A stretch of DNA of 64,000 bases from Clostridiales bacterium (lineage in GTDB: Bacteria; Bacillota; Clostridia; Christensenellales; CAG-138): the NCBI GenBank assembly GCA_012838425.1, contig DUPG01000026.1, positions 1 to 64,000 of the forward strand, in the 5' to 3' direction. A program made the translations under genes and the position numbers. How positions within the stretch are numbered: the first letter of the stretch is position 1; every line of letters begins with the position of its first letter. This document shows, in pieces, positions 26,925 to 60,218 of this stretch. The notes beneath the pieces are model-generated. The model did no database searches. It was given only the letters and a program-made list of their open reading frames with translations, and had not been told where the DNA came from.

Positions 26925-29900
26925 ATGAAGAAAATCTATTCTGTCATAGCACTTGTGCTGCTTATTCTTTTAATACCCGTTTATTCACTTGCAGATTCAA
27001 AAAACCTCAGTGTGAACGGCGATTTTGAAGAACCAAGCACTACGAGCTATCCGCGCGGCTGGTCATTCAGCACATGGGACGAAAACAGACCTTCGATTGC
27101 AGAGGTAGTAGAAATTGAAGGCAGGGGAAATGTTGTTTACATAAAAAACGAAAAAGCCAATGACACCAGCTTATATCAAGTGATGCCCGTTGAGCCAAAC
27201 TCGTATTATGAGATTTCGTGCTATATAAAAACAGCCGGAGTTGAATCGGGCAAGGGCGCAAACATATCCGTATTGCATAGCCACGCTTACTCTACCACTC
27301 TGTTTGGTGATAACGACTGGCAGAAGGTCTCTTTTATAGGGCAAACCAATGCTGACCAAGAGGAGATAAGCGTTGCTATACGCATAGGCGGATACAGCGG
27401 AATAGCTTCCGGCGAAGCATGGTTTGACGATGTAACGGTTACAAAATTAGATAAAGCCCCATCAGATACATCAATTGTTCAAAAGCTGTATATAGAAAGT
27501 CAACCGAACCCCAACAACACAGAAGGCGAAAATATGCCCTACATGGGTACAATACTTGGATTAACGCTTTTGTTCGCTATTGCACTCATACTTATCTACA
27601 ACAAAATGATAAAGAACCCGAAAATGATTAAGTTGAATGAGAAAAAGGGCTTACTCGAAAACCCTTACATGATATTCATTCTGCTTGGCTTGGGCTTAGT
27701 AATAAGAATACTATGCAACTATTTGTTCCAATCCGTAGGCGATGACCCGCAATTTGGACATCCGACAGACATAAAGTGCTTCTTCGCATGGGGCGAAAGG
27801 ATGTTGAGCAATGGTCCAAGCGGATTCTATGCGCCCGATTATTTCTGCGACTATCCTCCCGGCTACCTGTATTTCTTAGGATTGTCATCGGGATTAAGCC
27901 ATCTTTTCGGTGCGGCGTATGGCTCTGCAACACATGCGCTATTCATGAAGCTTCCCTCAATAATTGCTGACCTGCTATTCGCTTTCTTGGCGTACAAGAC
28001 GGCAAAACGCATTAAGCTGAACGAAACTGTAGCGAACATCGCCGCTTGCTTCGTATTATTTAACCCGACAATCATATTCCTATCCTCTGTTTGGGGACAG
28101 ATTGACATTATACTCTCTTTGCTTATAGCAATTGCGGCAATACTGTTTATTGACGGAACAAAGATTGTAAAGACTGCCGGGCTGCTGAACCCAAGAATTA
28201 TAGCCTGCGGCGCAATATATGGATTGGCTATTCTAATAAAGCCGCAAGCATTGATGGTAGGTCCTGTATTTTTTGTTGCATATATTGTTTATATCATTAA
28301 CAACGACAAGCGAAATCAGCTTAACCAAGCGCTTTTGAACACCGTGTTGGCTGTGCTGTCTGCATTTGCGGTGATACTGCTTGTGTCATTCCCGTTTAAG
28401 CCGCAGCTTTTCGGACAAGAGGGGCTTGTTAAATGGCTGTTTGAAAAATACATTGGCACTGTAGGCGGATACAATTACGCAAGCGTTGAAGCGTACAACT
28501 TCATGTCGCTTATAGGCGGGCTGTGGACAAACGCCGACAAGGTTGTGTTCTTAGGGCTTACATACAAGCATATAGGCACAATTCTTATGGTGTTTGTGGG
28601 CATCGCTACGGCTGTATACTATGTTTTCGGCGAGAAAAAGAACAAGAGCGCGCTTATACTTTGCATGGCGTTTATGTTTGCGGGACTGTTCACATTCGGG
28701 CATTATATGCACGAGCGTTACATATTCCCCACATTAGTACTGTTAGTGCTTGCCGCTGTCGCTTACAAGGACAAGCGTCTGTATTTGCTGAGCGGGCTGT
28801 ACTCAATATCCGCTTTCCTAAACAGCGCAGGCGCGTTTATAATAATATCGAATCAATTTGCGAGAACAGAAAGCTATGATAACTTCGTGCTTTTAGGTTC
28901 ACTTTTCACTGTATTGTGCTTCTTATACTTCATATATGTAGGATACAAAATTATGATTAACGGAAAAATCGAAAAAGCGTTTGACGCGAAAAAGCCTGAA
29001 CAGCTTGCCATAACGCAAACAACAAGCGGAAGGATACTTCCCGACAAGGTCGATAACAAGCTGAGATTCAAGCGCAAGGACTATATATTCATAATCGCTG
29101 TTACACTTATTTACGCGGTGATTGCGCTAACCAACCTGGGTACGACTCAAGCGCCCGAAAACGGCTTGGTGATGACTATACAAGACGAAGACGCTGTAAT
29201 AGAGTTCGATAAAAAGGTCGAGATTTCCTCTGTATATGTGTACGGCGGCATAGCAAACCAAAGCCGCGTAGCTTTAAGAGATGCCGACAATAATGTGATA
29301 GCCTCATACGAACAGGTGTATGGGCATATGTTCAGATGGCGCGAAATTACAACCACGCCATTTTCAACGAATAAGGTAGTACTATCGGTCGAGTCGGGCA
29401 AAATTGACTTCAAAGAAATTGCATTCTATGATCCCCAAGGCAACCCGATAATAGGTCGCTCAAACGAGTTTGCAAGCCCGTTGATTGACGAGCCTGATGA
29501 GATTCCCATTAAGTCGAAAATATCCTATATGAACGGAATGTATTTCGACGAGCTGTATCATGGCAGAACAGCGTATGAGCACCTGCACAACCTAAAAGCA
29601 TACGAGGTAACACACCCGCCGCTTGGAAAAATCATAATAAGCATAGGCATCGCGATATTCGGTATGAACGCATTCGGCTGGCGTGTGATGGGCGCTTTGT
29701 TCGGCGTGGCTATGGTGCCTATAATCTACTGCTTCGCTAAACGGTTGTTCAAGAAGAGCGAATACGCATTGCTGGTAGCGTTCATATTCGCATTTGACTT
29801 CATGCACTATGTTCAGACGCGCATAGCGACTATTGACGTTTACGGCGTGTTCTTCATATTGCTGATGTTCTACTATATGTATCAGTACTTCACCATGAAT

Positions 29901-30911
29901 GTATTTGTTGACGGGCTCAAAGCTACCTTCAAGCCCTTAGCGTTGGCAGGACTTTTCTTCGGATTAGGCGCCGCAAGCAAGTGGATATGCTTCTACGCCG
30001 GCGGCGGCTTGGCAATAATGTTCCTGATTTCGATTATTCAAAGGATAATCGAGTACAAGAAGGTAATGGCATATGGCACTCCTGAGGAAGAAGAAAAGGT
30101 TTCGCATTTCCCGAGGTATTTGATTGCTACAATCGGGTGGTGCTTGATATTCTTCGTTGCGCTGCCAATAGTGATTTACTCCGCTTCATACCTTGTGTTC
30201 CCCGATGTTGCGCAAGCATTTAAGCAAAAAGGTATTCAAGGCTTTATGGACAGGGTATGGTACTTGCAGAAAAACATGTACGATTACCACAGCGATTTGA
30301 AGGCCACACATTCATTCCAGTCGCCTTGGTATTCGTGGCTGCTTGATATTCGTCCGATATGGTTCTACAAGGGAGCAGCGCCCGACGGCTATGTCGCTAC
30401 TATATCTTCATTCGGCAACCCGTATATTTGGATACCTTCATTGATAGGAACTATCGCTTTGGTAGTGCTGACTCTCAAGAAGAAGTTAAAAGCTAACGCA
30501 GGGATTATTATGGTGATAATAGGCGTTGCTTCTAACCTTGGTCCTTGGGTGCTGGTAACGCGCTGTACATTTATTTATCACTACTTCGCTACTGTTCCTT
30601 TCATAATACTTGGAGCGGTGTACCTGCTGAAATACCTTGAAGAAAAGTACAACTGGCTCTCATATATTAAATGGGGCTGGATGATAGTTGCCGGCGTAAT
30701 GTTTGCAGCGTACTATCCTTTCTTGACGGGTATTATAGCTTCTAAGAAGTACATGGAGCTTTTACAATGGATGCCCTCATGGACATTCTTGGGCTCACAA
30801 GGTCCAATTAAGGGAACCATATTCGGAATATGCGTAACCGTATTCATCATAATCGCATTCGTGCTTTTCGGAATGATGAAAAAGCAGAAATATGAGGCGC
30901 GATTTTTATAG
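26925..30911 (+). CDS. Large membrane glycosyltransferase: signal peptide, CBM-like domain, GT-C module and PMT/GT39-like module
   Basis: 1328 aa. N-terminal NLSVNGDFEEPSTTSYPRGWSF..., first multi-TM module (HPTDIKCFFAWGERMLSNGPSGFY..CDYPPGYLYFLGL), second with FDELYHGRTAYEHL..THPPLGKIIISIGIAIFGMNAFGWRVMGALFG as in PMT family. Confidence 0.88.
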   Translation: MKKIYSVIALVLLILLIPVYSLADSKNLSVNGDFEEPSTTSYPRGWSFSTWDENRPSIAEVVEIEGRGNVVYIKNEKANDTSLYQVMPVEPNSYYEISCYIKTAGVESGKGANISVLHSHAYSTTLFGDNDWQKVSFIGQTNADQEEISVAIRIGGYSGIASGEAWFDDVTVTKLDKAPSDTSIVQKLYIESQPNPNNTEGENMPYMGTILGLTLLFAIALILIYNKMIKNPKMIKLNEKKGLLENPYMIFILLGLGLVIRILCNYLFQSVGDDPQFGHPTDIKCFFAWGERMLSNGPSGFYAPDYFCDYPPGYLYFLGLSSGLSHLFGAAYGSATHALFMKLPSIIADLLFAFLAYKTAKRIKLNETVANIAACFVLFNPTIIFLSSVWGQIDIILSLLIAIAAILFIDGTKIVKTAGLLNPRIIACGAIYGLAILIKPQALMVGPVFFVAYIVYIINNDKRNQLNQALLNTVLAVLSAFAVILLVSFPFKPQLFGQEGLVKWLFEKYIGTVGGYNYASVEAYNFMSLIGGLWTNADKVVFLGLTYKHIGTILMVFVGIATAVYYVFGEKKNKSALILCMAFMFAGLFTFGHYMHERYIFPTLVLLVLAAVAYKDKRLYLLSGLYSISAFLNSAGAFIIISNQFARTESYDNFVLLGSLFTVLCFLYFIYVGYKIMINGKIEKAFDAKKPEQLAITQTTSGRILPDKVDNKLRFKRKDYIFIIAVTLIYAVIALTNLGTTQAPENGLVMTIQDEDAVIEFDKKVEISSVYVYGGIANQSRVALRDADNNVIASYEQVYGHMFRWREITTTPFSTNKVVLSVESGKIDFKEIAFYDPQGNPIIGRSNEFASPLIDEPDEIPIKSKISYMNGMYFDELYHGRTAYEHLHNLKAYEVTHPPLGKIIISIGIAIFGMNAFGWRVMGALFGVAMVPIIYCFAKRLFKKSEYALLVAFIFAFDFMHYVQTRIATIDVYGVFFILLMFYYMYQYFTMNVFVDGLKATFKPLALAGLFFGLGAASKWICFYAGGGLAIMFLISIIQRIIEYKKVMAYGTPEEEEKVSHFPRYLIATIGWCLIFFVALPIVIYSASYLVFPDVAQAFKQKGIQGFMDRVWYLQKNMYDYHSDLKATHSFQSPWYSWLLDIRPIWFYKGAAPDGYVATISSFGNPYIWIPSLIGTIALVVLTLKKKLKANAGIIMVIIGVASNLGPWVLVTRCTFIYHYFATVPFIILGAVYLLKYLEEKYNWLSYIKWGWMIVAGVMFAAYYPFLTGIIASKKYMELLQWMPSWTFLGSQGPIKGTIFGICVTVFIIIAFVLFGMMKKQKYEARFL

Positions 30912-44111: not shown

Positions 44112-47100
44112 CTATAATTCAACAAGCACATCATGCACTTTACCGTCATCAATAAGCTCAATTATGCCATTCTTTGCTGTAATACCGTCAACCACAACTC
44201 TTTTGCTTCCGCTGAACTGCTTGACTTTAATCTTATATACGGATGTTAGGTATTTGTATTCAATGCTGTATTCGTTCCAGACTGTATTGGGCTGAATTTT
44301 CAAGGTGTTACCATATCTGACTATACCCAAAATGCTTTCAACTGCCGCAACATACAGCCATGCAGCACTGCCCGTGTACCATGTCCACCCGGCGCGTGAA
44401 GCATTTTTGCCGAAGGAATATACATCGCCGGCAACCGCATAGGGTTCACCCTTGTATTTTAGCATTGAGGTCTTCTGCGCAGTATGGTTTATGGGGTTAA
44501 TAAGCCTGAACTGACGCATTGCAAGCTCTTGGTTGTTCAGCTTGCAGGCAGCAATTATGCTCCATGCGGCTGCGTGCGTGTATTGACCGCCATTCTCGCG
44601 CACTCCCGGCAAGTATGCCTGAATATAGCCTACTACCCTTTCGTCGCCCTCCTGTATCTCGCCATATGGAGGTGTTAGCAACGCGATTGTGCCGTTTTCT
44701 TCGTTCATAAGCATAGACACAGCTGACTTATATGCTGTTTTCGCCCTTTCCGCGCCTGCAAACACCGAGAAAACCTGCGGAATTATATCAATGAGCCCTT
44801 CTGTATTTGTGTGCGAGCCTAATGGTGTGCCGTCTCCGAAAAACGCGCGCTTATACCATGCGCCGTCCCATGCGTGCACTTCTACCGCTTCCCTCAATTC
44901 TTCCTTGACTCTTTCAAACTTGGCTATGCGCTTGTCATTCCTCTGCTTCGCTATCGGCGCAATACCTTCTATGACAAGCTGCAAAAAGAACGCCAAGAAT
45001 ACGCTTTCGCCGCCGTTTCTGCCTACGCAGTCCATACCGTCGTTCCAATCGCTGCCGCCCATAAGAGGCAATTTGTGCGCGCCTAACTCAAGCGTGGCTT
45101 CTATTGCACGCATACAGTGTTCGTATAGCGTATCGGTGTGGCTCGTGTGCTCTGCTACGAAATACTTGTCGTTCTCATGCTCTTGTAGCGGAACATCCTT
45201 CAAATACGGTACTTTCTCATCATAAATGGAATAGTCGCCCGTTACCTCGCAATATTTTGCTGTTACGAAGGGCAAAAACAGCCTGTCATCAGTTATCCTT
45301 GTGCGCACGCCCTTTGAAGGTGTATGCCACCAGTGCAGCACATCGCCGGCTTCGAACTGCATAGCGGCTGAAATGAGTATCTGCCCCTTCGCGCGCCTGG
45401 GATTCGAATGCAGCAGCGCCAAAACATCTTGCAGCTGGTCTCTGAATCCATACGCGCCGCCGCTTTGATAATAGCCTGTTCGCGCCATGAGCCTGCTTGC
45501 ATATACTTGATAAAGCAATCTGCGATTTATTAGCAGGTCGAACTCAGGCTCGGGCGTTTTTACCACGATTTGATTCAGCTTGCTGTTCCAAAGTGCCTTT
45601 ACGCGCTGCAATACTATATCAAAATCTGATGGTCTGCTTTTGTCTATTATCGCTTTTGCGGTTTCGTACTCGTCCTCGCCTAACATGAGCAGTAGGTCTT
45701 TCTTCTCGCCCGCGTTAACGCTGAAGGTCACGCAAATGCAAGCCATATTGCTTTTGCCTGTGTGCTTAGAAATGCTTTCTAAGTGCCAGCCTTGATTGAG
45801 CACCGCATCCCTGTCTGTTGAAAGCTCTATGCTGTGCTCGCCATCTATAACCGCGCAAGTGTATCTGCACTCATGCGTTTTGGCGCTGAACATGAATACA
45901 GCGTTATTTTCTAAGCGCGGAGTTGCGTCTGCCGCCAAGTCATACTCCACAATATAGAAGCAGGTTATGTGCCTTTTTCTTTCCGCCGGATTGCTTATTG
46001 AAAGCCTGCTGAGCTTAATGGGTCTATAATCGTCAACTGCAACAGTCAGTACCTGTTCTAATCCGCTGTTGCCTGATGTGAAGCTTGAATAACCGAAACC
46101 GTGTCGCACAAGCACTTGACCTTCGCCTTGCAACGCGCCATGAGTTACTGTCCACACCTCACCTGTTTCATCATCTCTTAATAATATTATCTCATTCAAC
46201 GGGTCGCGAACTGGGTCGCAATGCCATGGTGTGATTCTGTTTTCGTGGCTGTTGCCCTTCCATGTGTAACCGCCTCCGCTTTCTGTAATTAGAGTTCCAA
46301 AGCCTTCATTAACTAATATGTTGCTCCATGGCAGAGGGGTGTTTTCGTGCTTTGAAAGCATTATTAGATAGTCGCCTGTTTCCTCATCAAAACCGCCTAA
46401 GCCATTATCAAACAGCAGCTTAGGCCTTTGGATAGGCAACGGCTTTACATATCGACCGTCGTTTATGTACTTCCTCTGCGGCTTGTCAACGAAAGGCTCT
46501 ATCTCGAATTGCCTGTCAAGCGACCTGTTGGGATCTATTACTATCAGCGCACACATACATAAAAGATCGAATACTTCGTCATTAATCTCGTAGCCATGAA
46601 TCACACGGACAGAATATGAATACATATCGTTAATTGAGCTTGTGGAAACTATATCCGCGATTTTCGACCGCAGCTCATTTGAATACTCATTTTCATAATC
46701 TCCCACTATTGCAAGCTCGAAATTGCAGCCCATTTTAGACATATACTCATGGAATTTAAGCAGAGTTTTCAGCAGTCTAAGCTGTGTTGTGTTCGAAATC
46801 TTCACCAGAACAAGCGGAAGCACATTTGATATGCCGAACTTGTGCAGCTCCTCGCGCCTTAAACGCGACACCTTTATATCATCAGGCTTTTTACGAATTC
46901 TTAGCAGCACGAACGCCGCCATTTTTTCGAATAACTCGGCTTTTCCGGCGGACAAATTCATAAATCGCAAAGCGCTCATAGACTTTGCCCATGCTAAATC
47001 CCTGACCTGCTCTATTGTGGTGCTGCTCAATTCGCGACAATCGGATATGGCTTGCTCCTTTGATTTTGCTAAGCCCATTACAAACAGAAGCGTGTTAGAC

Positions 47101-50100
47101 TCTCCCGCCTTTATAGTTACCTCTGAGCGCGCGCATATTCCGGGTTCTATAGGCGCTGTAACGTCCGCGCTCATAAACAATGGAGATTTCATAGCCGATG
47201 CATGGCTGCTGTTCCTGCCGGGAATTATCAGCCTGTCCGTTACATAGCGCGGGCGCGAATCGCCCCCAATCATCTGTGCATACATATACACAGGCTTTCG
47301 CTTTATTGTGCCGCGCCTATGGAATAGCAGCATATCATCTGCAAGCTCTGCGTCAACCGTTACGCGCACAAATGCTGGGTGCGAAATATCCTCTTGGAAT
47401 GAGGCTAAGCTCACCTCCGAGAATACGCCTACCTCTACCGTTTTCTCCTCGCTGCCATGATTTATTAGGGTGATTTGCCGCAGCTCACCGTTGCAATCGG
47501 GCGAAACTATTGTTTCAACCTTGCAGGTAATATCGCCAATGCGCTTTACCTGCTCTACCCTATGCCTATCAAATACCGTAAACGCGCTGTCGCCCTCCTG
47601 CTGACATAGTGCCGGTGCGACCTCTTCTATTTCATCATCGCATTTTATGCAAACGGCAACCCCTGAATCCGAACGCAGATAATCCGGTCTGAATCTTGTC
47701 AAATAAACATCTCCACATTTTGAAAAGCCGACGCCATTGTCGCAAATAAACACAGTGTATTCGCCATTCGTAAGCAATTGAGATTGCGGCGTTTTGTGGA
47801 ATCTGCGCAGGTACCTTGGCTTCGAATCCGCTCTTCTTTTACATTCTTCTTCGTCCTCATAGGCGGTGCGCTCAAACTCTTTGAGCGTTATTGCGTTAGA
47901 GGGCAGCTCTTCCTCATTCAACAGCAATACTGTTCTTATTTCGGGAATCCTTGAAAAGCGTTCTTGAATTATATTGCCGCGCAATACATTCGTAATCGCG
48001 CATAGGCTCATGCCCTGATGGTGAGCCATGTAGCTTTCCACAATTTCGTATTCTGCATTGGGGCGCACGCGGCTATTCGTATAATCAATCGCTTCAAAAT
48101 AACCGTACCTTCCGCGCATACTTTCATCAAACAGCCTTATGCCATCGCAAGCGGCTTCCTTATCAACAAGCAATGCAAGTACCGTTGCATACGGGGCTAT
48201 TACAAGCTCGCGCTCGCGAATGGGGCAAAGCCCCAGCTTAGGAACGCCAAATGCCCTGTACTGATAGTACATAGACTGGTCGAAAGCATAGTATCCCGAC
48301 TCTGAAATTCCCCAAGGTATTGTGCGCTTTTTGCTCAAGCTCTCGGCATACTTGCGCTGGGCTATTACTACATTTTTGCAGCTTTCGTCCAGCAATGTAT
48401 CTTCAACATTGGGAGTAAATATTACGGGCATAAGGTACTCGAACATTGTGCCGCCCCACGAAATCAATGCCCTAACCTTATCCGCCTTTATAAGTAACCT
48501 GCCCAGCGAAAACCACGCTTTTACGGGTATCTTATTCATAGCGCAGGCGACAAAATAGCTGAGCCGCGCTTCAGACGCCAACAGGTCATACCAAGATTGA
48601 TTAAGTACACCATTGTTATAGTCAAAGCCTATGTGGAATAGCGACTTGCTATTGTCAAACAGCGCGGAAAAGTCCATATCATACGCTATTTTTCGTAAAT
48701 CCTGCGCAATTCTCTCTTTTTTCTCTCTTCTCTCTGCGCTTAATGAGCCGTCATTCAGCTCAAGCACCGATTGAGCGCATACTAAAAGGCACGCCGCCAA
48801 GTTGCCGCTGTCAACAGTGGATATGTAGGGCGGCTCTAGCTTTTCGCCGGTATTTATCGAATACCAGTTGAACAGATGTCCATTCCATTTTTCTAATCTA
48901 TTGATGTACACAATTGTGATTTCTAAGCGGGAAAGCATTGTATCTGCATCAATATAGCCCAAATCATACGCGCAAACTGTCGCCATAAGCCCCATACCAA
49001 TATTCGTGGGCGATGTGATTCTAACCGCTGGCTTTTTGGGATTCTCCTGAACATTATCGGGCGGAATAAAGCCATGCTCCTTTTCGCCCTGCTCATCAAA
49101 GAACGCCCATATTTGCTTGGCAAGCTCCTCAAGCATTGATTTATTAGCTTCGGACAATTCCTTTTGCTTTTTAGGCAAATCCATAAGATAAATAACTGCC
49201 GGAGCGAATATCCAAGCTATCCCCAGCACTATTGCCGCGCAGAATTGGCAAAAGGGCATTGAGAAATAAAAAATACCGAACGCGGTGTTCACCCATGTTT
49301 TTCTGTAATAATACGCTAAGTTCTTATTCTTAAAATGCTTCTCGCTTTCGGCTGCGGTTTGCCATTCCAACATTCTTCTATGCGTGAAATTCACTCTCAC
49401 TAATGTTCTTATAATCGCGTCAAGGCTTATATACGCTTCATAGGGAAGCATAATTATTCGCAATACCGCGCGCAAAGCGGTATAGGCTTGGTCTTTCAGC
49501 TTGCCAAAGCCGCATTTTGGGATATGCACAAAGGCTGATAGACAGTCTATTACTTGGTCAATGAGGAGAGCAGCTATTCCGATATACGCCGAAGCTCGCC
49601 ACCCTATAAATATAGAAAGCAGCAATGTCATCATTACGCTGGGGATAATAAGGCTTCTTCTTAGATTATCAAGTATCTTCCAGCGCGCAAGCCTTGATAG
49701 ATATGTATTGTATTTTACGCCATTTAAGTCCTTGCCGTTGCGCGAAAGGTAAGGCAACAGTTGCCAATCGCCCCTAAGCCAGCGGTGCTGCCTTTTCCAC
49801 CACGAAATATAAGTCGAGGGCTCACCGTCATAAAACACGACATCGCTTAAATACCCTGCACGCACGAAGCAGCCCTCAAGCAAGTCGTGGCTTAGCACTG
49901 TATTGTCCCTTATTTTGCCCTCTAAAGCCTTTGCGAACACTTCAATATCGAATATTCCCTTACCGCAGAAGGTGCCTTCGCGGAATATATCCGAATAGAA
50001 GTCGCAAGCAAACCCCGAATATGACGACACGCCGCCAAAGCCCGTAATAACCTTTGAGAACTTGGTTTTCGCGGCGCTTTTTGCTGTGTTATCCATTCGC

Positions 50101-51968
50101 GGAAACATCAACCCATAGCCGCTTACTACGACTCCATGCTCATTTAGTACCGGAGCGTTTTGCGGATGCGCCATTGCTCCTATCATTTCTTTTAGAGATT
50201 CGCGCGGTATTATCGTATCTGAATCCACGACCACGCAATACTTTAATTTTTCAGGCAAAGGCGAAGATATAAGCGCATAGGGCGACTCATTTTTATTCAG
50301 CACATACGAAATGAAGTCCATTACCGCGCCGCGCTTGCGCTCTCTGCCCATGAATATTCCGTCGGGCTCGTTTTTGGTTCTTTCTCTGTGCAAGAAGTAA
50401 AACAGCTTTTCTTCGCATGGGTACTTTTTGTTGAGCTTTTCAACTAATTCTTCCGCGTATTTTACAAGCTCTACTTCACCTTCCCTCCAAACAAGGTTTG
50501 AATCGGAAAAATCGCCCAAAACAGCGAAAAAGCAGCCTTCAAGCGGGTTTGACAGGTAATGCGTTTCCACTTGCTCTACACTATGCTCTACGCTTGCCTT
50601 ATCGAATATAAGCGTTGGCACAATTACTATTGTGCGCATGCTTTCTTCTAACTCGTTTCCGATTTCAAGCCTTGGAATGAAACGCGGTTTTAGCCCTTTC
50701 ATCAACAGCCTAACTGCTATTGCGTTTGCGATAGTCAATGCCGGAATTACTACGAATAGCGCTTCAAGGAGGTTAAATACTGCAAGCGGCAACACTATCA
50801 CAGCCGCAATGGCTAATTGAATGAGTATGAACCGATTCAGCTTATGATTATTCGTTCTGTATATTGACTTGCAGTCGGGGCGAAGCTCTTTCCTTAGCTC
50901 GTCTATGCCTGTATCGTCAAGCAGGTACCTGCCTACATGGGTATTGCTCATTTTTGCAAGGTTTACGGCGCGCATTGCTACGGCGGCTTCTGTTACATCT
51001 AAGTCAAGCGCAATTTTTGACACTATTTCAGCATACTTCTTCTTTGATGTGAGGTTCATATTGTTATAGAGTTCATCTGCCGAAAGCGCCTCGCGGACTA
51101 CTGAGAGAGCATTATACGCTTGCTCCCAATTCATTGTATCTATGAACTTCAAGCTGTTGATTGCGTTTGCTGCGATTCTATGACTATCGCTTTGGCGTTG
51201 AATGTGCAGGTCGTTCTCGTCCTCTATTGTTCGGCTTTGAGTTGCTAACTCGTCTTTTAGATACGAAATAAGCTCAAAGCTATCCTTTTCACACAGATAC
51301 GAATACAGATGGTTTATGCCGGCAGAATCAAGCGTTTTGACGCTTTGCCTGATTATTTCCTTCTGCTTGCGCTTACTGTTTGAATATTTTGAAAGCGTTT
51401 CCCATACCTCATCGGCGCTTTCATACTCGGCAATGGTTTGTATTGCTGTTAATGCGCTTGCTGTAAGCTGTTCAATACATACGATTTTCAACATTAAAGG
51501 TAACAGCTCTAACTCTGCGCTGCCCAGAGGTGCTATCTTTTGAAACTCGCGTATGAAGCTGTAAAAAACCTCCTCATTAAACCTGTATTCCTTATGCGCC
51601 AACAGCTCGCTTGCTATGCCGTAAACACGAAGCTGACCATTCCTTGAGCCTTCGGCTGATACAGGGATAGAATGTGGTAGTCTCTGCACTTTCAAAATAT
51701 CTGAAATTGCTGTTAAATTCTTTTCGACCAAGTAGAAATTATCAATAAGCGTATCTGCTACAGGCGGCAGCTCTACACACTTTGAGTTTGCTTTTATTAC
51801 GAATTTATATATGGCGGTTAGAACCTTTTTTTCTGAAGAAATGCTTAAATTTGCGTCATTTATGCGTATTGCCCTGCACCGCACAAAAGACAGCTCTCGC
51901 GCTAATCGTAAAAGATCCGAATCGCTTAGAAGCGTAGCCGAACCGCTTACTCGATTTTTATTATACAT
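44112..51968 (-). CDS. Cyclic beta-1,2-glucan synthase-like giant protein (GT84-like, glucoamylase-like and GH94-like modules)
   Basis: 2618 aa. CVVVDSDTIIPRESLKEMIGAM, WWKRQHRWLRGDWQLLPYL, C-terminal GGSDWNDGMDCVGRNGGESVFLAFFL as in NdvB/Cgs and GH94 enzymes. Confidence 0.88.
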   Translation of the reverse strand: MYNKNRVSGSATLLSDSDLLRLARELSFVRCRAIRINDANLSISSEKKVLTAIYKFVIKANSKCVELPPVADTLIDNFYLVEKNLTAISDILKVQRLPHSIPVSAEGSRNGQLRVYGIASELLAHKEYRFNEEVFYSFIREFQKIAPLGSAELELLPLMLKIVCIEQLTASALTAIQTIAEYESADEVWETLSKYSNSKRKQKEIIRQSVKTLDSAGINHLYSYLCEKDSFELISYLKDELATQSRTIEDENDLHIQRQSDSHRIAANAINSLKFIDTMNWEQAYNALSVVREALSADELYNNMNLTSKKKYAEIVSKIALDLDVTEAAVAMRAVNLAKMSNTHVGRYLLDDTGIDELRKELRPDCKSIYRTNNHKLNRFILIQLAIAAVIVLPLAVFNLLEALFVVIPALTIANAIAVRLLMKGLKPRFIPRLEIGNELEESMRTIVIVPTLIFDKASVEHSVEQVETHYLSNPLEGCFFAVLGDFSDSNLVWREGEVELVKYAEELVEKLNKKYPCEEKLFYFLHRERTKNEPDGIFMGRERKRGAVMDFISYVLNKNESPYALISSPLPEKLKYCVVVDSDTIIPRESLKEMIGAMAHPQNAPVLNEHGVVVSGYGLMFPRMDNTAKSAAKTKFSKVITGFGGVSSYSGFACDFYSDIFREGTFCGKGIFDIEVFAKALEGKIRDNTVLSHDLLEGCFVRAGYLSDVVFYDGEPSTYISWWKRQHRWLRGDWQLLPYLSRNGKDLNGVKYNTYLSRLARWKILDNLRRSLIIPSVMMTLLLSIFIGWRASAYIGIAALLIDQVIDCLSAFVHIPKCGFGKLKDQAYTALRAVLRIIMLPYEAYISLDAIIRTLVRVNFTHRRMLEWQTAAESEKHFKNKNLAYYYRKTWVNTAFGIFYFSMPFCQFCAAIVLGIAWIFAPAVIYLMDLPKKQKELSEANKSMLEELAKQIWAFFDEQGEKEHGFIPPDNVQENPKKPAVRITSPTNIGMGLMATVCAYDLGYIDADTMLSRLEITIVYINRLEKWNGHLFNWYSINTGEKLEPPYISTVDSGNLAACLLVCAQSVLELNDGSLSAERREKKERIAQDLRKIAYDMDFSALFDNSKSLFHIGFDYNNGVLNQSWYDLLASEARLSYFVACAMNKIPVKAWFSLGRLLIKADKVRALISWGGTMFEYLMPVIFTPNVEDTLLDESCKNVVIAQRKYAESLSKKRTIPWGISESGYYAFDQSMYYQYRAFGVPKLGLCPIRERELVIAPYATVLALLVDKEAACDGIRLFDESMRGRYGYFEAIDYTNSRVRPNAEYEIVESYMAHHQGMSLCAITNVLRGNIIQERFSRIPEIRTVLLLNEEELPSNAITLKEFERTAYEDEEECKRRADSKPRYLRRFHKTPQSQLLTNGEYTVFICDNGVGFSKCGDVYLTRFRPDYLRSDSGVAVCIKCDDEIEEVAPALCQQEGDSAFTVFDRHRVEQVKRIGDITCKVETIVSPDCNGELRQITLINHGSEEKTVEVGVFSEVSLASFQEDISHPAFVRVTVDAELADDMLLFHRRGTIKRKPVYMYAQMIGGDSRPRYVTDRLIIPGRNSSHASAMKSPLFMSADVTAPIEPGICARSEVTIKAGESNTLLFVMGLAKSKEQAISDCRELSSTTIEQVRDLAWAKSMSALRFMNLSAGKAELFEKMAAFVLLRIRKKPDDIKVSRLRREELHKFGISNVLPLVLVKISNTTQLRLLKTLLKFHEYMSKMGCNFELAIVGDYENEYSNELRSKIADIVSTSSINDMYSYSVRVIHGYEINDEVFDLLCMCALIVIDPNRSLDRQFEIEPFVDKPQRKYINDGRYVKPLPIQRPKLLFDNGLGGFDEETGDYLIMLSKHENTPLPWSNILVNEGFGTLITESGGGYTWKGNSHENRITPWHCDPVRDPLNEIILLRDDETGEVWTVTHGALQGEGQVLVRHGFGYSSFTSGNSGLEQVLTVAVDDYRPIKLSRLSISNPAERKRHITCFYIVEYDLAADATPRLENNAVFMFSAKTHECRYTCAVIDGEHSIELSTDRDAVLNQGWHLESISKHTGKSNMACICVTFSVNAGEKKDLLLMLGEDEYETAKAIIDKSRPSDFDIVLQRVKALWNSKLNQIVVKTPEPEFDLLINRRLLYQVYASRLMARTGYYQSGGAYGFRDQLQDVLALLHSNPRRAKGQILISAAMQFEAGDVLHWWHTPSKGVRTRITDDRLFLPFVTAKYCEVTGDYSIYDEKVPYLKDVPLQEHENDKYFVAEHTSHTDTLYEHCMRAIEATLELGAHKLPLMGGSDWNDGMDCVGRNGGESVFLAFFLQLVIEGIAPIAKQRNDKRIAKFERVKEELREAVEVHAWDGAWYKRAFFGDGTPLGSHTNTEGLIDIIPQVFSVFAGAERAKTAYKSAVSMLMNEENGTIALLTPPYGEIQEGDERVVGYIQAYLPGVRENGGQYTHAAAWSIIAACKLNNQELAMRQFRLINPINHTAQKTSMLKYKGEPYAVAGDVYSFGKNASRAGWTWYTGSAAWLYVAAVESILGIVRYGNTLKIQPNTVWNEYSIEYKYLTSVYKIKVKQFSGSKRVVVDGITAKNGIIELIDDGKVHDVLVEL

Positions 51969-54949: not shown

Positions 54950-56614
54950 ATGCAGTGGATTATTTTCGGCCTGGTGCAGATTATCGTAATGATAACGGTT
55001 TATTCTTACTTCAAATGGCGAAAAAAGAAAGAGGAAGGACAAACAAAGCAGATAATAAACCGAGAGGACACAAGAGAATTATATGAGTTGAGGGCTATGC
55101 GCGCACGCTCATTGAATATTCCATTATCTGAAACTGTGCGGCCGGCTTCGCTGAACGATATTATCGGTCAAGAAGAAGGCATAAAGGCACTCAGAGCGGC
55201 ACTTTGCGGCGCAAACCCTCAGCATGTGCTTATATATGGACCTCCGGGCGTGGGCAAAACCTGCGCGGCAAGGCTTATATTAGAAGAAGCTAAGAAGCGC
55301 GACATATCGCCTTTTAACCAGCATTCACAGTTTATCGAAATAGATGCTACATGTGTTCGCTTTGACGAGCGCTCGATAGCGGACCCGCTTTTAGGCAGCG
55401 TGCATGACCCCATATATCAAGGCGCGGGAGCGTTGGGCGTGCAGGGTATTCCCCAGCCAAAGCCGGGCGCTGTATCAAGAGCGCATTGCGGAGTGCTTTT
55501 CTTAGACGAAATAGGCGAGCTGCATCCTATTCAGATGAACAAGCTGCTGAAGGTATTAGAAGATAGGTGCGTGCATTTTGAAAGCGCGTATTACTCTAAG
55601 CACAATACAAATATTCCACAGCATATACACGATATTTTCCAAAAGGGTCTGCCTGCGGATTTCAGGCTTGTTGGCGCCACTACGCGCTCGCCGGAGGAGC
55701 TGCCGCCTGCCCTGCGTTCACGCTGCGTCGAGATATTTTTCTCGCCCTTAACCGATGAACACCTAATCTCTATCGCTAAAACAGCCGCCGCTAAGCTGAA
55801 TATAGGCATTAACCAAAGCACTTTGGCGGAGTGCGCCGCGTATTCGAAGTCCGGACGCGACGCTGTTAACATAATTCAGCTTGCAAGCAGCATAGCTTAT
55901 GAGGAAGGTCGAAGCTTCATATCGAAAAGTGATGTGGAATGGGTTGCCAATGTATGTCATCTGATAAAGCGGCACAGCAGTATCATTCCATCACATTCGC
56001 AGGTAGGCGTTTGCTATGGCTTGGGCGTTACAGGCAGCGTAGGCTCGATTATTGAGATAGAATGTATCGCGACTAAGGCAATTTCGGGTACCGGAACCCT
56101 AAATATTCGCGGCGCAATAATGGAGGAGGATTTCAACACGAACGGCAGACGCTTAAAACGAAAGAGCATGGCATATTCTTCTGTTGAAAATGTGTGCGCT
56201 GCATTCTACAAGGTGTTTGGAATAGATTGCAGGAAGTACGACATTGCCTTCAACATACCCGGCGGAATGCCTATGGACGGACCGAGTGCGGGCATAGCAT
56301 TGAGTACCGCCTTAATGAGTGCGCTTACAGGCAGGGCACCGCAAAGCAGCATTGCGCTTACAGGCGAAGTAACAGTGAATGGCGAAGTGCGTGCTGTGGG
56401 CGGCATACGCGAGAAGATTCAAGCGGCAATATTAGCAGGCGCGAAAAAGGTAATAATTCCGCAAGCTAATTTAGAGCAGGCAAAGGGATTTGATATTCAG
56501 ATAATACCTGTTAGTAACTTACATGAGGTTATGGCTGTGGGATTTAAGGTAAGCGGTTTAGTGAATAGCTCTGTTTCAGCAGGGCGTACGGAACAGGGGG
56601 TATTTACAAGCTAA
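54950..56614 (+). CDS. lonB: Lon-family ATP-dependent protease, LonB-like
   Basis: N-terminal TM, YGPPGVGKTCAARLILEEA, GVLFLDEIGELHPIQMNKLLKVLEDR, protease domain GGMPMDGPSAGIALSTAL...AGAKKVIIP. Confidence 0.92.
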   Translation: MQWIIFGLVQIIVMITVYSYFKWRKKKEEGQTKQIINREDTRELYELRAMRARSLNIPLSETVRPASLNDIIGQEEGIKALRAALCGANPQHVLIYGPPGVGKTCAARLILEEAKKRDISPFNQHSQFIEIDATCVRFDERSIADPLLGSVHDPIYQGAGALGVQGIPQPKPGAVSRAHCGVLFLDEIGELHPIQMNKLLKVLEDRCVHFESAYYSKHNTNIPQHIHDIFQKGLPADFRLVGATTRSPEELPPALRSRCVEIFFSPLTDEHLISIAKTAAAKLNIGINQSTLAECAAYSKSGRDAVNIIQLASSIAYEEGRSFISKSDVEWVANVCHLIKRHSSIIPSHSQVGVCYGLGVTGSVGSIIEIECIATKAISGTGTLNIRGAIMEEDFNTNGRRLKRKSMAYSSVENVCAAFYKVFGIDCRKYDIAFNIPGGMPMDGPSAGIALSTALMSALTGRAPQSSIALTGEVTVNGEVRAVGGIREKIQAAILAGAKKVIIPQANLEQAKGFDIQIIPVSNLHEVMAVGFKVSGLVNSSVSAGRTEQGVFTS

Positions 56615-57119: not shown

Positions 57120-60100
57120 ATGGAAAGTGTCTGCCGCATTACAAGCATAATTCTTGTGATAGTATTTATAGCTGCGTTACTTATACCAATTACTTTTGCT
57201 GTGGATTTTGAGAACCTTTTTGAGCCATCAGCAGAGGAGAAGCTAAACGAGCTGTTTTCTACTTGGAATGTTATAGAAAGCCATGAAAAATCGGTTGAAC
57301 AAAATACAAAGGGCGATATGAAAATCGTCGAAGCAATGTATGAGTATATATCGAGCTTAGATAATGTAACAGAGATTATTTACGAGAATGAATATTACTT
57401 TTCATTCCAGCTGAGCACTGGGCTTTGGAGCGAATACCACCGTTTCGGTGATATATCCACTAACGAATATGTATTTGATAGCGAAAGCTTCGACTTTGAG
57501 CCTGTGAAGGACATAGAGGTAGTAGGCAGCAAGGTTATAGGCGTTTACTCACCATACTATGGCGTTGACCAAAGCATGACCACCAACTACTACAATGCCG
57601 CGCAAGGAATGGTGAGCAGATTGGGTCCTGACTGGACCGTAGAAGCCTGGTATGGCAATGGTTCGGCTTCCTTCTGCACTGGTGCCGGCAATGTTGAGAG
57701 CTTCAAAAACTTTGGCAAGTACAGCGTAGTACTTGTTGACAGCCATGGCTCTTCACTATCAGCTACAGGAAAGTCGTATATATGGGTGCCTATTCCCGGA
57801 GAATACGACTTAATAGACATTGCAGAAGGACACCTGATGTATTCAGGCGGTGAAATAGGCGTTTCGGGAACATATATCGAAAAATACTGCACATTGCCCA
57901 ACAGCTTCATATACTTAGGAATTTGCGAAGGCATGATGCAGTTGGGTACCGCCGAGGCTTTGATTCGCGCAGGCGCCGGCTTCGTATGCGGATATAATGA
58001 TTCGGTTTCTTTCACATATGACGGGCAGATGATGCCTACAATATGCCAATATATATCAACAGTGCATAAGACGGATACCACAAGAACTTACTCAGCCGCA
58101 GAAGCCTGCAACGAAGCGAAGAAAAAGCATGGCGCAGTGGATCCATACGCACAGCCAACATATAAAGCGGTCTTAATATGGCTTGGCAACGAGGATTTGG
58201 TGCTGTGGCATCCTATACCCGTTGAGGGCGTTGAGATAATAGATAAAGAAATCGACCTGTATATAAGCAATACTCATAAATTCACATTCGAAACAACACC
58301 GTTAGATGCGAACGGATATAATGTGCGTTGGGAATCTGACGCGCCTGAGGTAGCTTCAATAAATGAAAGAACGGGAGAAATAGTCGCGTTGTCTGAAGGT
58401 GTTGCGAACATAACATTAACTGTAAGCGATACATACGGTTCGGGAAACACTTTTTCAAGTGAAGCTGTTGTAAATGTGCTTGGCGTTATGCACGCAGAAG
58501 GCATAAGCTTTGAATCAGCGGCTTACGACACCTGCATAGGCAACAGCATTGCAATACCCGTAGTATTCACACCCGCTAACACCTCTAATAAGGAAGTTAC
58601 ATGGTCAATAGACAATCCAGCTGTAGCGGAAATTGACGAAAACGGCGTTATAACTCCCCTAAGCATTGGCAAATCAAGAGTTACGGCAACTTCTGTTGAC
58701 GGCGGCTTTATTGCAACCACAACCTTGCGCGTGTTAGACCTGAACGGTGCCATAAATGCAGAGCGCGGCAAGCTAAATTTCACAACCTCACCACAGAATT
58801 ACGCTTGGAAACCCTTCATATACAACGATAAAGTGGTCGCTATATCCGGTAATACAGGCGTTGCAAGCTCTTCATCAATACTGTCTTTGAGTATCAACCT
58901 GAACAAAGGGCAGAAGCTGACATTCGACTATTTAGTCAGCAGTGAGCAAAACAAGGATGTGTTTTCATTCATCGTAAACGGTTCAGAGGTATTTAAGCAA
59001 TCAGGCACTACTAACACATGGAAAAACTACACATACACCTGCAGCACTACGCGAAGCTATACATTCATTTGGCAATACGCTAAGGATTACAAAAACAATT
59101 CAGGTTTTGACGGTGCATTGATTGACAATATCTTGATATCAAGCGGCGAAACTGAAGATCAAATACCTGCAGGCGAGATAATATTCAGCGAATACTTCGA
59201 AACCAACCCATTTGATAGCGGCTGGACTGTTGAAAATCTAACAGATTACGATAAAACTTGGGAGCACGACACAGAAAGCGGCAACGCCTATGAGGGCGAA
59301 GGCTTTATGCATTCGTACTCATATATTGATGGTGTTGGCGAAGTGCCTCACACGAATTTGCTTGTAAGCCCAGCTATTACTATTCCTAAAAAGATGGAGA
59401 ATATGACGCTGTCCTTCAGAGCAAAGGCTTCGGACTATATTTGGGAGAGCGAGGAGTTTACAGTATTAGTTGGTATTAGCCCTGATAATTTGGCAGAAAA
59501 GCAGACCTTTATTACCACAGGTGATTATCAGCGCTATACAATCGATTTGACGGACTATGCAGACGATACGATTTACATAGCCTTCCGCCATAATGACAAG
59601 CCCGCGCAGTCCTCGCTTTGCTTGGATAATGTTGAGCTGTACGCGACAATAAACCCCGTGTATAAGCTGACATACTACTTGAATGGCGAGTTTTATGCAC
59701 AGTTTGAGCATACTGCGGGAGAAAAAATTGAGCCTTTGGAAGCGCCATCACAGGAGGGATATGCTTTCTCCGGCTGGCAGGGGCTACCCGAGGCAATGCC
59801 TGCGCATGATGTTGATGTTGCAGGAACTTTGATGAAAATGACTTTCACCGTAACCTTCTGGGACAGCATTGCGAACACAGAGATTTCTAATATAACCGTA
59901 GAATACGGAGATGTTGTAACAGAGTTCCCCGCGCCGCCTGAGCATGAAGGATATTTGTTCTTAGGCTGGGATTATGACAATTTGCCTGTTGTTGCAGATA
60001 TAACCATAGCCGCAAATTATCTGCTGCTGGGCGATGTAAATAACGACGGCGTAATAAACACGGGCGACGCTGTGATAGTATTAAAGGGCACAATCAGCAA

Positions 60101-60218
60101 TACCCTGAACGAACAACAAAAGCTGGCTGCCGACTTCAATCAAGACGGCAAGCTGAATACCGGCGACGCCGTAGCGATATTGAAGTACATTGTTAGCAGA
60201 AGAAAAGAGTTGTTCTAA
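57120..60218 (+). CDS. Secreted multidomain protein: clan CD-like cysteine peptidase domain, BIG2-like domains, jelly-roll-like domain, InlB-like repeats and C-terminal dockerin
   Basis: Signal peptide-like N-terminus; VVLVDSHGSS and FIYLGICEGM (His-Gly and Cys dyad candidates); two BIG2-like segments; YKLTYYLNGEFYAQFEHTAGE..GYAFSGW; dockerin GDVNNDGVINTGDAVIVLK..ADFNQDGKLNTGDAVAILKYIV. Confidence 0.8.
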   Translation: MESVCRITSIILVIVFIAALLIPITFAVDFENLFEPSAEEKLNELFSTWNVIESHEKSVEQNTKGDMKIVEAMYEYISSLDNVTEIIYENEYYFSFQLSTGLWSEYHRFGDISTNEYVFDSESFDFEPVKDIEVVGSKVIGVYSPYYGVDQSMTTNYYNAAQGMVSRLGPDWTVEAWYGNGSASFCTGAGNVESFKNFGKYSVVLVDSHGSSLSATGKSYIWVPIPGEYDLIDIAEGHLMYSGGEIGVSGTYIEKYCTLPNSFIYLGICEGMMQLGTAEALIRAGAGFVCGYNDSVSFTYDGQMMPTICQYISTVHKTDTTRTYSAAEACNEAKKKHGAVDPYAQPTYKAVLIWLGNEDLVLWHPIPVEGVEIIDKEIDLYISNTHKFTFETTPLDANGYNVRWESDAPEVASINERTGEIVALSEGVANITLTVSDTYGSGNTFSSEAVVNVLGVMHAEGISFESAAYDTCIGNSIAIPVVFTPANTSNKEVTWSIDNPAVAEIDENGVITPLSIGKSRVTATSVDGGFIATTTLRVLDLNGAINAERGKLNFTTSPQNYAWKPFIYNDKVVAISGNTGVASSSSILSLSINLNKGQKLTFDYLVSSEQNKDVFSFIVNGSEVFKQSGTTNTWKNYTYTCSTTRSYTFIWQYAKDYKNNSGFDGALIDNILISSGETEDQIPAGEIIFSEYFETNPFDSGWTVENLTDYDKTWEHDTESGNAYEGEGFMHSYSYIDGVGEVPHTNLLVSPAITIPKKMENMTLSFRAKASDYIWESEEFTVLVGISPDNLAEKQTFITTGDYQRYTIDLTDYADDTIYIAFRHNDKPAQSSLCLDNVELYATINPVYKLTYYLNGEFYAQFEHTAGEKIEPLEAPSQEGYAFSGWQGLPEAMPAHDVDVAGTLMKMTFTVTFWDSIANTEISNITVEYGDVVTEFPAPPEHEGYLFLGWDYDNLPVVADITIAANYLLLGDVNNDGVINTGDAVIVLKGTISNTLNEQQKLAADFNQDGKLNTGDAVAILKYIVSRRKELF

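Follow-up and report, generated by a model that had tools for sequence, protein, structure and literature searches.

The gene at 57120-60218 on the forward strand of the 64,000-nucleotide stretch analysed here (the window) raises the question of what a secreted, caspase-like peptidase might dock to, and for what purpose, when the discussion of cohesin-dockerin assemblies is nearly always about polysaccharides. The answer that we consider probable is that its product is a surface-docked secreted peptidase within a protease-biased, cellulosome-like cohesin-dockerin system that feeds peptide uptake. The reading of this protein in a preliminary description, as a clan CD-like cysteine peptidase carrying a dockerin, is supported, and the larger finding is the protease-biased cohesin-dockerin set of the source genome, that of an uncultured gut-type bacterium.

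Gene and domain organization

The open reading frame runs as first described and encodes 1032 amino acids. GGGAGG precedes its ATG, a hydrophobic signal-like stretch opens the protein, and the following features are recognizable along it.

57120-60218 (+): whole gene, predicted secreted caspase-fold peptidase with a C-terminal dockerin (1032-residue open reading frame; Pfam)
57120-57200 (+): signal-peptide-like N-terminus, residues 1-27, MESVCRITSIILVIVFIAALLIPITFA (sequence reading)
57219-57458 (+): pro-region-like helical and beta segment, residues 34-113; a linker modelled with low confidence comes next (AlphaFold secondary structure, pLDDT)
57504-58223 (+): predicted caspase-fold catalytic domain, residues 129-368 (models, Foldseek, 35-member alignments)
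57744-57746 (+): invariant H209, motif D-S-H-G, after a predicted core strand (alignments, model)
57924-57926 (+): invariant C269, motif G-I-C-E-G-M, after a later core strand (alignments, model)
58209-58484 (+): first Big_2 Ig-like domain, boundaries approximate (Pfam PF02368, two stretches)
58491-58739 (+): second Big_2 Ig-like domain (Pfam PF02368)
58743-59147 (+): first of two jelly-roll-like modules, probably the first Cleaved_Adhesin/choice_anch_J stretch (two Pfam/NCBIfam stretches; boundaries from sequence reading)
59172-59648 (+): Cleaved_Adhesin/choice-of-anchor J module (PF07675; NF038128, E 4.1e-18)
59661-60023 (+): two InlB/Flg_new repeats (PF09479, two stretches)
60027-60191 (+): type I dockerin, residues 970-1024, with two F-hand calcium loops and NTGD at the end of each loop (PF00404)

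Residues 34-113, as modelled, may constitute a propeptide. The middle of the protein had been read as two BIG2-like domains, a jelly-roll-like region and InlB-like repeats, and domain searches agree, returning two Big_2 domains, Cleaved_Adhesin/choice_anch_J and two Flg_new repeats (Pfam, NCBIfam). The two-EF-type dockerin was likewise recovered, with a Dockerin_1 score of 38 bits against the Pfam cut-off of 22.9, which places it in type I, and with two complete 12-residue calcium loops, DVNNDGVINTGD and DFNQDGKLNTGD. The first 380 residues have no Pfam or NCBIfam match, and matches to PDB sequences are confined to the Ig and dockerin parts.

A sigma-70 promoter scan performed no better here than on shuffled sequences. 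The gene is flanked by ribosomal protein L28-like and diacylglycerol-kinase-like genes (names from sequence reading), and these neighbors are uninformative. Just upstream, 54950-56614 (+) encodes a LonB-like protein with an AAA ATPase and a Lon C-terminal protease domain (Pfam). Two further large genes lie in the window: 44112-51968 (-) encodes 2618 residues with GT, glycoamylase-like and GH94 domains (Pfam) and resembles a cyclic beta-glucan synthase, and 26925-30911 (+) encodes 1328 residues with glycosyltransferase domains of the PMT type (PF02366 in two stretches, Pfam).

The catalytic domain and its family

AlphaFold models residues 38-380 (343 residues) with a pLDDT of 88.6, and a trimmed version comprising residues 129-368 (240 residues) with a pLDDT of 92.9. 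With either model nearly all of the best 50 Foldseek matches in the PDB belong to clan CD, headed by SAVED-CHAT (TM-score 0.57, probability 1.00) and including Csx29, Dronc, MALT1, separase, caspases, metacaspase, gingipain RgpB and legumain; the best TM-scores (0.57) are moderate, and the sequence identity to known clan CD structures is about 10%. In the trimmed model, and in its numbering, H209 comes after strand 75-80 and C269 after strand 135-140, which is the clan CD order. The motifs VVLVDSHG and IYLGICEG, from which a His-Gly/Cys dyad was originally proposed, both occur in the protein and place H209 and C269 at a distance of 60 residues, and all 35 aligned homologues retain D207, H209, G210, D233, C269 and G271 without exception. 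These homologues share 22-55% identity and were retrieved with the whole domain and not with the motif, and invariance of the D, H, G and C positions among them argues that the motifs did not arise by chance. A reading in which the His and Cys motifs are coincidental and the domain adopts some other fold could appeal to the lack of Pfam, NCBIfam or PDB sequence matches, but we give it almost no credence, because the confident models resemble clan CD structures and hardly anything else, and because the two residues do not vary among the homologues. The predicted caspase (clan CD) fold of the N-terminal domain, on which the preliminary description depended, is well supported by this modelling, and we infer that the protein is a proteolytically active cysteine peptidase with a predicted His209/Cys269 dyad.

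The proposed kinship with gingipain, clostripain and CHAT peptidases holds at the level of the fold, and it does not extend to family assignment by sequence, since none of the 35 members matches a sequence model for C25 (gingipain), C11 (clostripain), C14 or CHAT. Comparison of the 35 members with all of Pfam (E<=1) and NCBIfam (E<=0.1) yielded no peptidase family, the returns being unrelated weak noise. We therefore reject placement of the domain by sequence in a peptidase family of Pfam or NCBIfam, and as no member has a match we regard this as an unnamed caspase-fold family, which would add a new family of secreted caspase-fold peptidases. A profile search of PDB sequences gave no clan CD match; its weak phosphatase matches are restricted to one short stretch (PYYGxDSxF) and were rejected. 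C11 peptidases and metacaspases have a basic S1 pocket, marked by an Asp at the second position ahead of the catalytic Cys. The 35-member alignment shows G, A, V or S there and never Asp, so a basic-P1 pocket of the C11 or metacaspase type is not predicted from it.

The source genome (1.48 Mb) encodes three paralogues of the catalytic domain, with 41, 35 and 27% identity, and each ends in a dockerin. The domain is present in 48 of the 103 genomes of its GTDB family and in 4 of approximately 390 other genomes sampled across the class (about 1%). Named relatives, found in genome contigs by an alignment scan where a single-sequence scan gave none, are Clostridia and Christensenella-labelled metagenome-assembled genomes (placement as labelled), many of them from ruminant guts. 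There are up to nine caspase-fold copies per genome, with eight in G035 and three in G025, both from related genera, and several differently built paralogues coexist. Clan CD also includes transpeptidases and autoprocessing domains, such as PorU-type C25 and self-cleaving enzymes, and the pro-region-like segment and linker that precede the domain would suit a reading of it as a module of that kind and not as a general protease. The high copy number and the coexistence of differently built paralogues argue otherwise, as does the lack of any target motif or partner substrate in what we have seen, and we judge such a role very improbable.

Cohesins, dockerins and their cargo

The window contains no cohesin gene, as had been remarked, and none of the genome's cohesin matches falls there. 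The remaining genome has 11 cohesins distributed among seven proteins (two are recognized by Pfam, ten by an own-genome cohesin profile, and 11 are counted with a lipoprotein included), and the Pfam and own-genome profile matches rule out the cohesin-less genome that would have counted against a complex. Three tandem genes encode single-cohesin proteins with the layout signal peptide, cohesin, linker, PPQTG/PPVTG/PVTG, transmembrane segment and RKK, that is, with sortase-type tails. Two proteins are cohesin-dockerin adaptors, one with two cohesins and one with three, and another is the cohesin-bearing lipoprotein. A 1744-residue subtilase (L072:4629-9860, G000:C25) combines PA and fn3_5 domains with two cohesins, a proline/threonine linker and a PPVTG-transmembrane tail, and from its sequence it appears to be a protease acting as a scaffoldin. 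The genome encodes two sortases. In a single open reading frame (L088:8962-10995, G000:C27), RCC1 repeats are oddly combined with both a dockerin-like stretch and a domain resembling a sortase, and the product may itself be a surface-assembly enzyme.

There are 26 dockerins in the source genome, with NTGD at loop positions 9-12 in at least one loop of 23 and in both loops of 15. Both calcium loops and the residues at positions 9-12 are largely uniform across the dockerins of the genome, and the recurrent NTGD suggests a shared specificity. One of the 26 open reading frames is cut at a contig end and was left out of the assessment of cargo. Among the cargo are the four caspase-fold paralogues, a single subtilase, two proteins with NlpC/P60, one transglutaminase-like protein and one AhpC/TSA protein, and other dockerin proteins carry RCC1, LRR and InlB repeats; as many of these are non-enzymatic, the set may serve adhesion too. 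Pfam finds no glycoside hydrolase among the dockerin proteins, and a genome-wide search for GH9 found none. The same protease bias, again with no docked glycoside hydrolase found, is seen in G035 and G025, with 45 and 59 dockerin open reading frames and two and six subtilases, respectively. CHAP domains also appear in the cargo when the source and related dockerin sets are taken together, beside the subtilases, caspase-fold proteins and NlpC/P60 domains. Three of the G025 dockerin proteins contain DUF2436, and a 1507-residue dockerin protein from that genome (L245:236-4756, G025:C27) has DUF2436 together with Cleaved_Adhesin. Several hallmarks of a cellulosome, namely cohesin scaffoldins and dockerin proteins in one genome, surface-anchoring signals and sortases, are present in the source genome, but no plant-cell-wall glycoside hydrolase was found among the dockerin proteins assessed, and for this reason we reject an ordinary cellulosome for this genome.

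At least two Pfam cohesins are found in 43 of 48 genomes that have the peptidase and in 8 of 55 that do not, and the corresponding proportions by genus are 9 of 10 and 4 of 16 (Fisher p 0.004), with phylogeny ignored in both comparisons. A clear exception is the relative G031, which carries the closest homologue (55% identity) and 17 dockerins, but in whose 95% complete genome neither Pfam nor an own-genus profile detects a cohesin. This genome favors a reading in which the dockerin has no cohesin partner and, as a C-terminal module that binds calcium, does something else, leaving the enzyme free and secreted, and the passage of PMC8542988 that cites Peer 2009 gives dockerin-like modules as known outside cellulosomes. 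We think this improbable for the protein described here, since the source genome has cohesins and cohesin-dockerin adaptors, the congener G001 has cohesins and the same adaptor layout, the number of cohesins follows the peptidase through the GTDB family, and the dockerin loops vary so little within the genome.

Proposed role and relation to known systems

In the surface-docked configuration that we prefer, the dockerin most likely plugs into cohesins displayed on the surface of the same cell, and docking could be direct, on the sortase-anchored single-cohesin proteins, or could proceed via the two cohesin-dockerin adaptors and the cohesin-bearing subtilase. The peptidase would then share with several other docked proteases a complex that resembles a cellulosome but has protein, and not polysaccharide, as its substrate, and the peptides set free would be imported by an Opp-type transporter. 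OppB, OppC and OppD-like genes of an Opp-type operon are located within 2-4 kb of one paralogue (C33:123-126 kb), with two peptide-binding-protein matches upstream and a glutamine synthetase between, an arrangement that would fit peptide uptake. Single-cell genomes of Christensenellales have been reported with cohesin and dockerin matches, listed without analysis of cargo, and with high peptide-transporter transcription.

A docked peptidase need not digest nutrients, and could instead serve in processing or housekeeping, by the maturation, trimming or shedding of other proteins of the surface or the complex. High specificity is common among clan CD enzymes, and Cleaved_Adhesin modules occur in partner proteins. 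Such a role has already been proposed for dockerin peptidases in C. thermocellum and in R. flavefaciens (reviewed in PMC12484212). However, the presence of four caspase-fold paralogues in the source genome, and of as many as nine in a single genome, together with subtilases as the second main kind of cargo, suggests that degradation is broad and not a single processing step, and an oligopeptide transporter adjoins one paralogue; we therefore regard a processing role as unlikely, though it is the alternative that we take most seriously.

More tentatively, and with slightly less than even confidence, we suggest that in one lineage of Clostridia from guts and digesters the plan of the cellulosome has been converted into a complex that is anchored at the surface and degrades protein, in which a subtilase partly carries the cohesins, subtilases and the unnamed caspase-fold family are the main docked enzymes, and glycoside hydrolases are not docked. 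A protease-biased version spread over several genera from herbivore guts and digesters would extend the cohesin-dockerin principle to protein breakdown and, if true, would bear on the loss of feed nitrogen in ruminants. In the one limited literature collection searched, there is no description of this caspase-fold family or of a protease-biased system in this lineage. The expectation that a docked protease would be unlike typical carbohydrate-active dockerin proteins stands insofar as the combination is unusual, but it is not unprecedented, since dockerin-borne peptidases, one C25 included, have been published (PMC2930009, PMC3573020, PMC8542988).

The predicted fold, and the order of His then Cys after successive core strands, are shared with SAVED-CHAT, Csx29/TPR-CHAT, caspases, MALT1, separase and RgpB, although identity to these clan CD peptidases of known structure is about 10% and no clan CD family in Pfam or NCBIfam recognizes the 57120-60218 domain. 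In Ruminococcus flavefaciens, dockerins are similarly found on peptidases, an NlpC/P60 module, transglutaminase-like and LRR proteins, and an X-dockerin peptidase is bound to the surface-anchoring ScaE, but this is a true cellulosome in which CAZymes make up about half of the dockerin proteins, and the peptidase module is papain-like and not caspase-like (PMC2930009, PMC3573020). Subtilases are joined to dockerin modules in the C. thermocellum S8 protease with a double dockerin (PMC12484212) and to cohesin modules in the A. mesophilus scaffoldin with an S8-like domain (PMC11557425), although these are cellulosome accessories and no caspase-fold cargo is reported there. The Limousia mucinolysome (PMC12997984) is, like the system proposed here, a non-cellulosic cohesin-dockerin complex of gut Clostridia with a sortase-anchored scaffoldin and some dockerin peptidases, but it docks many CAZymes for mucin glycans, whereas no docked glycoside hydrolase was detected in the source genome. 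Candidatus Stygibacter (Cloacimonadota; PMC8542988) belongs to another phylum, its peptidase to the named C25 family, and its one large scaffoldin bears a CBM and glycoside hydrolases are docked as well, but it too combines a secreted clan CD peptidase and a subtilase, both with C-terminal dockerins, with a cohesin scaffoldin in the same genome.
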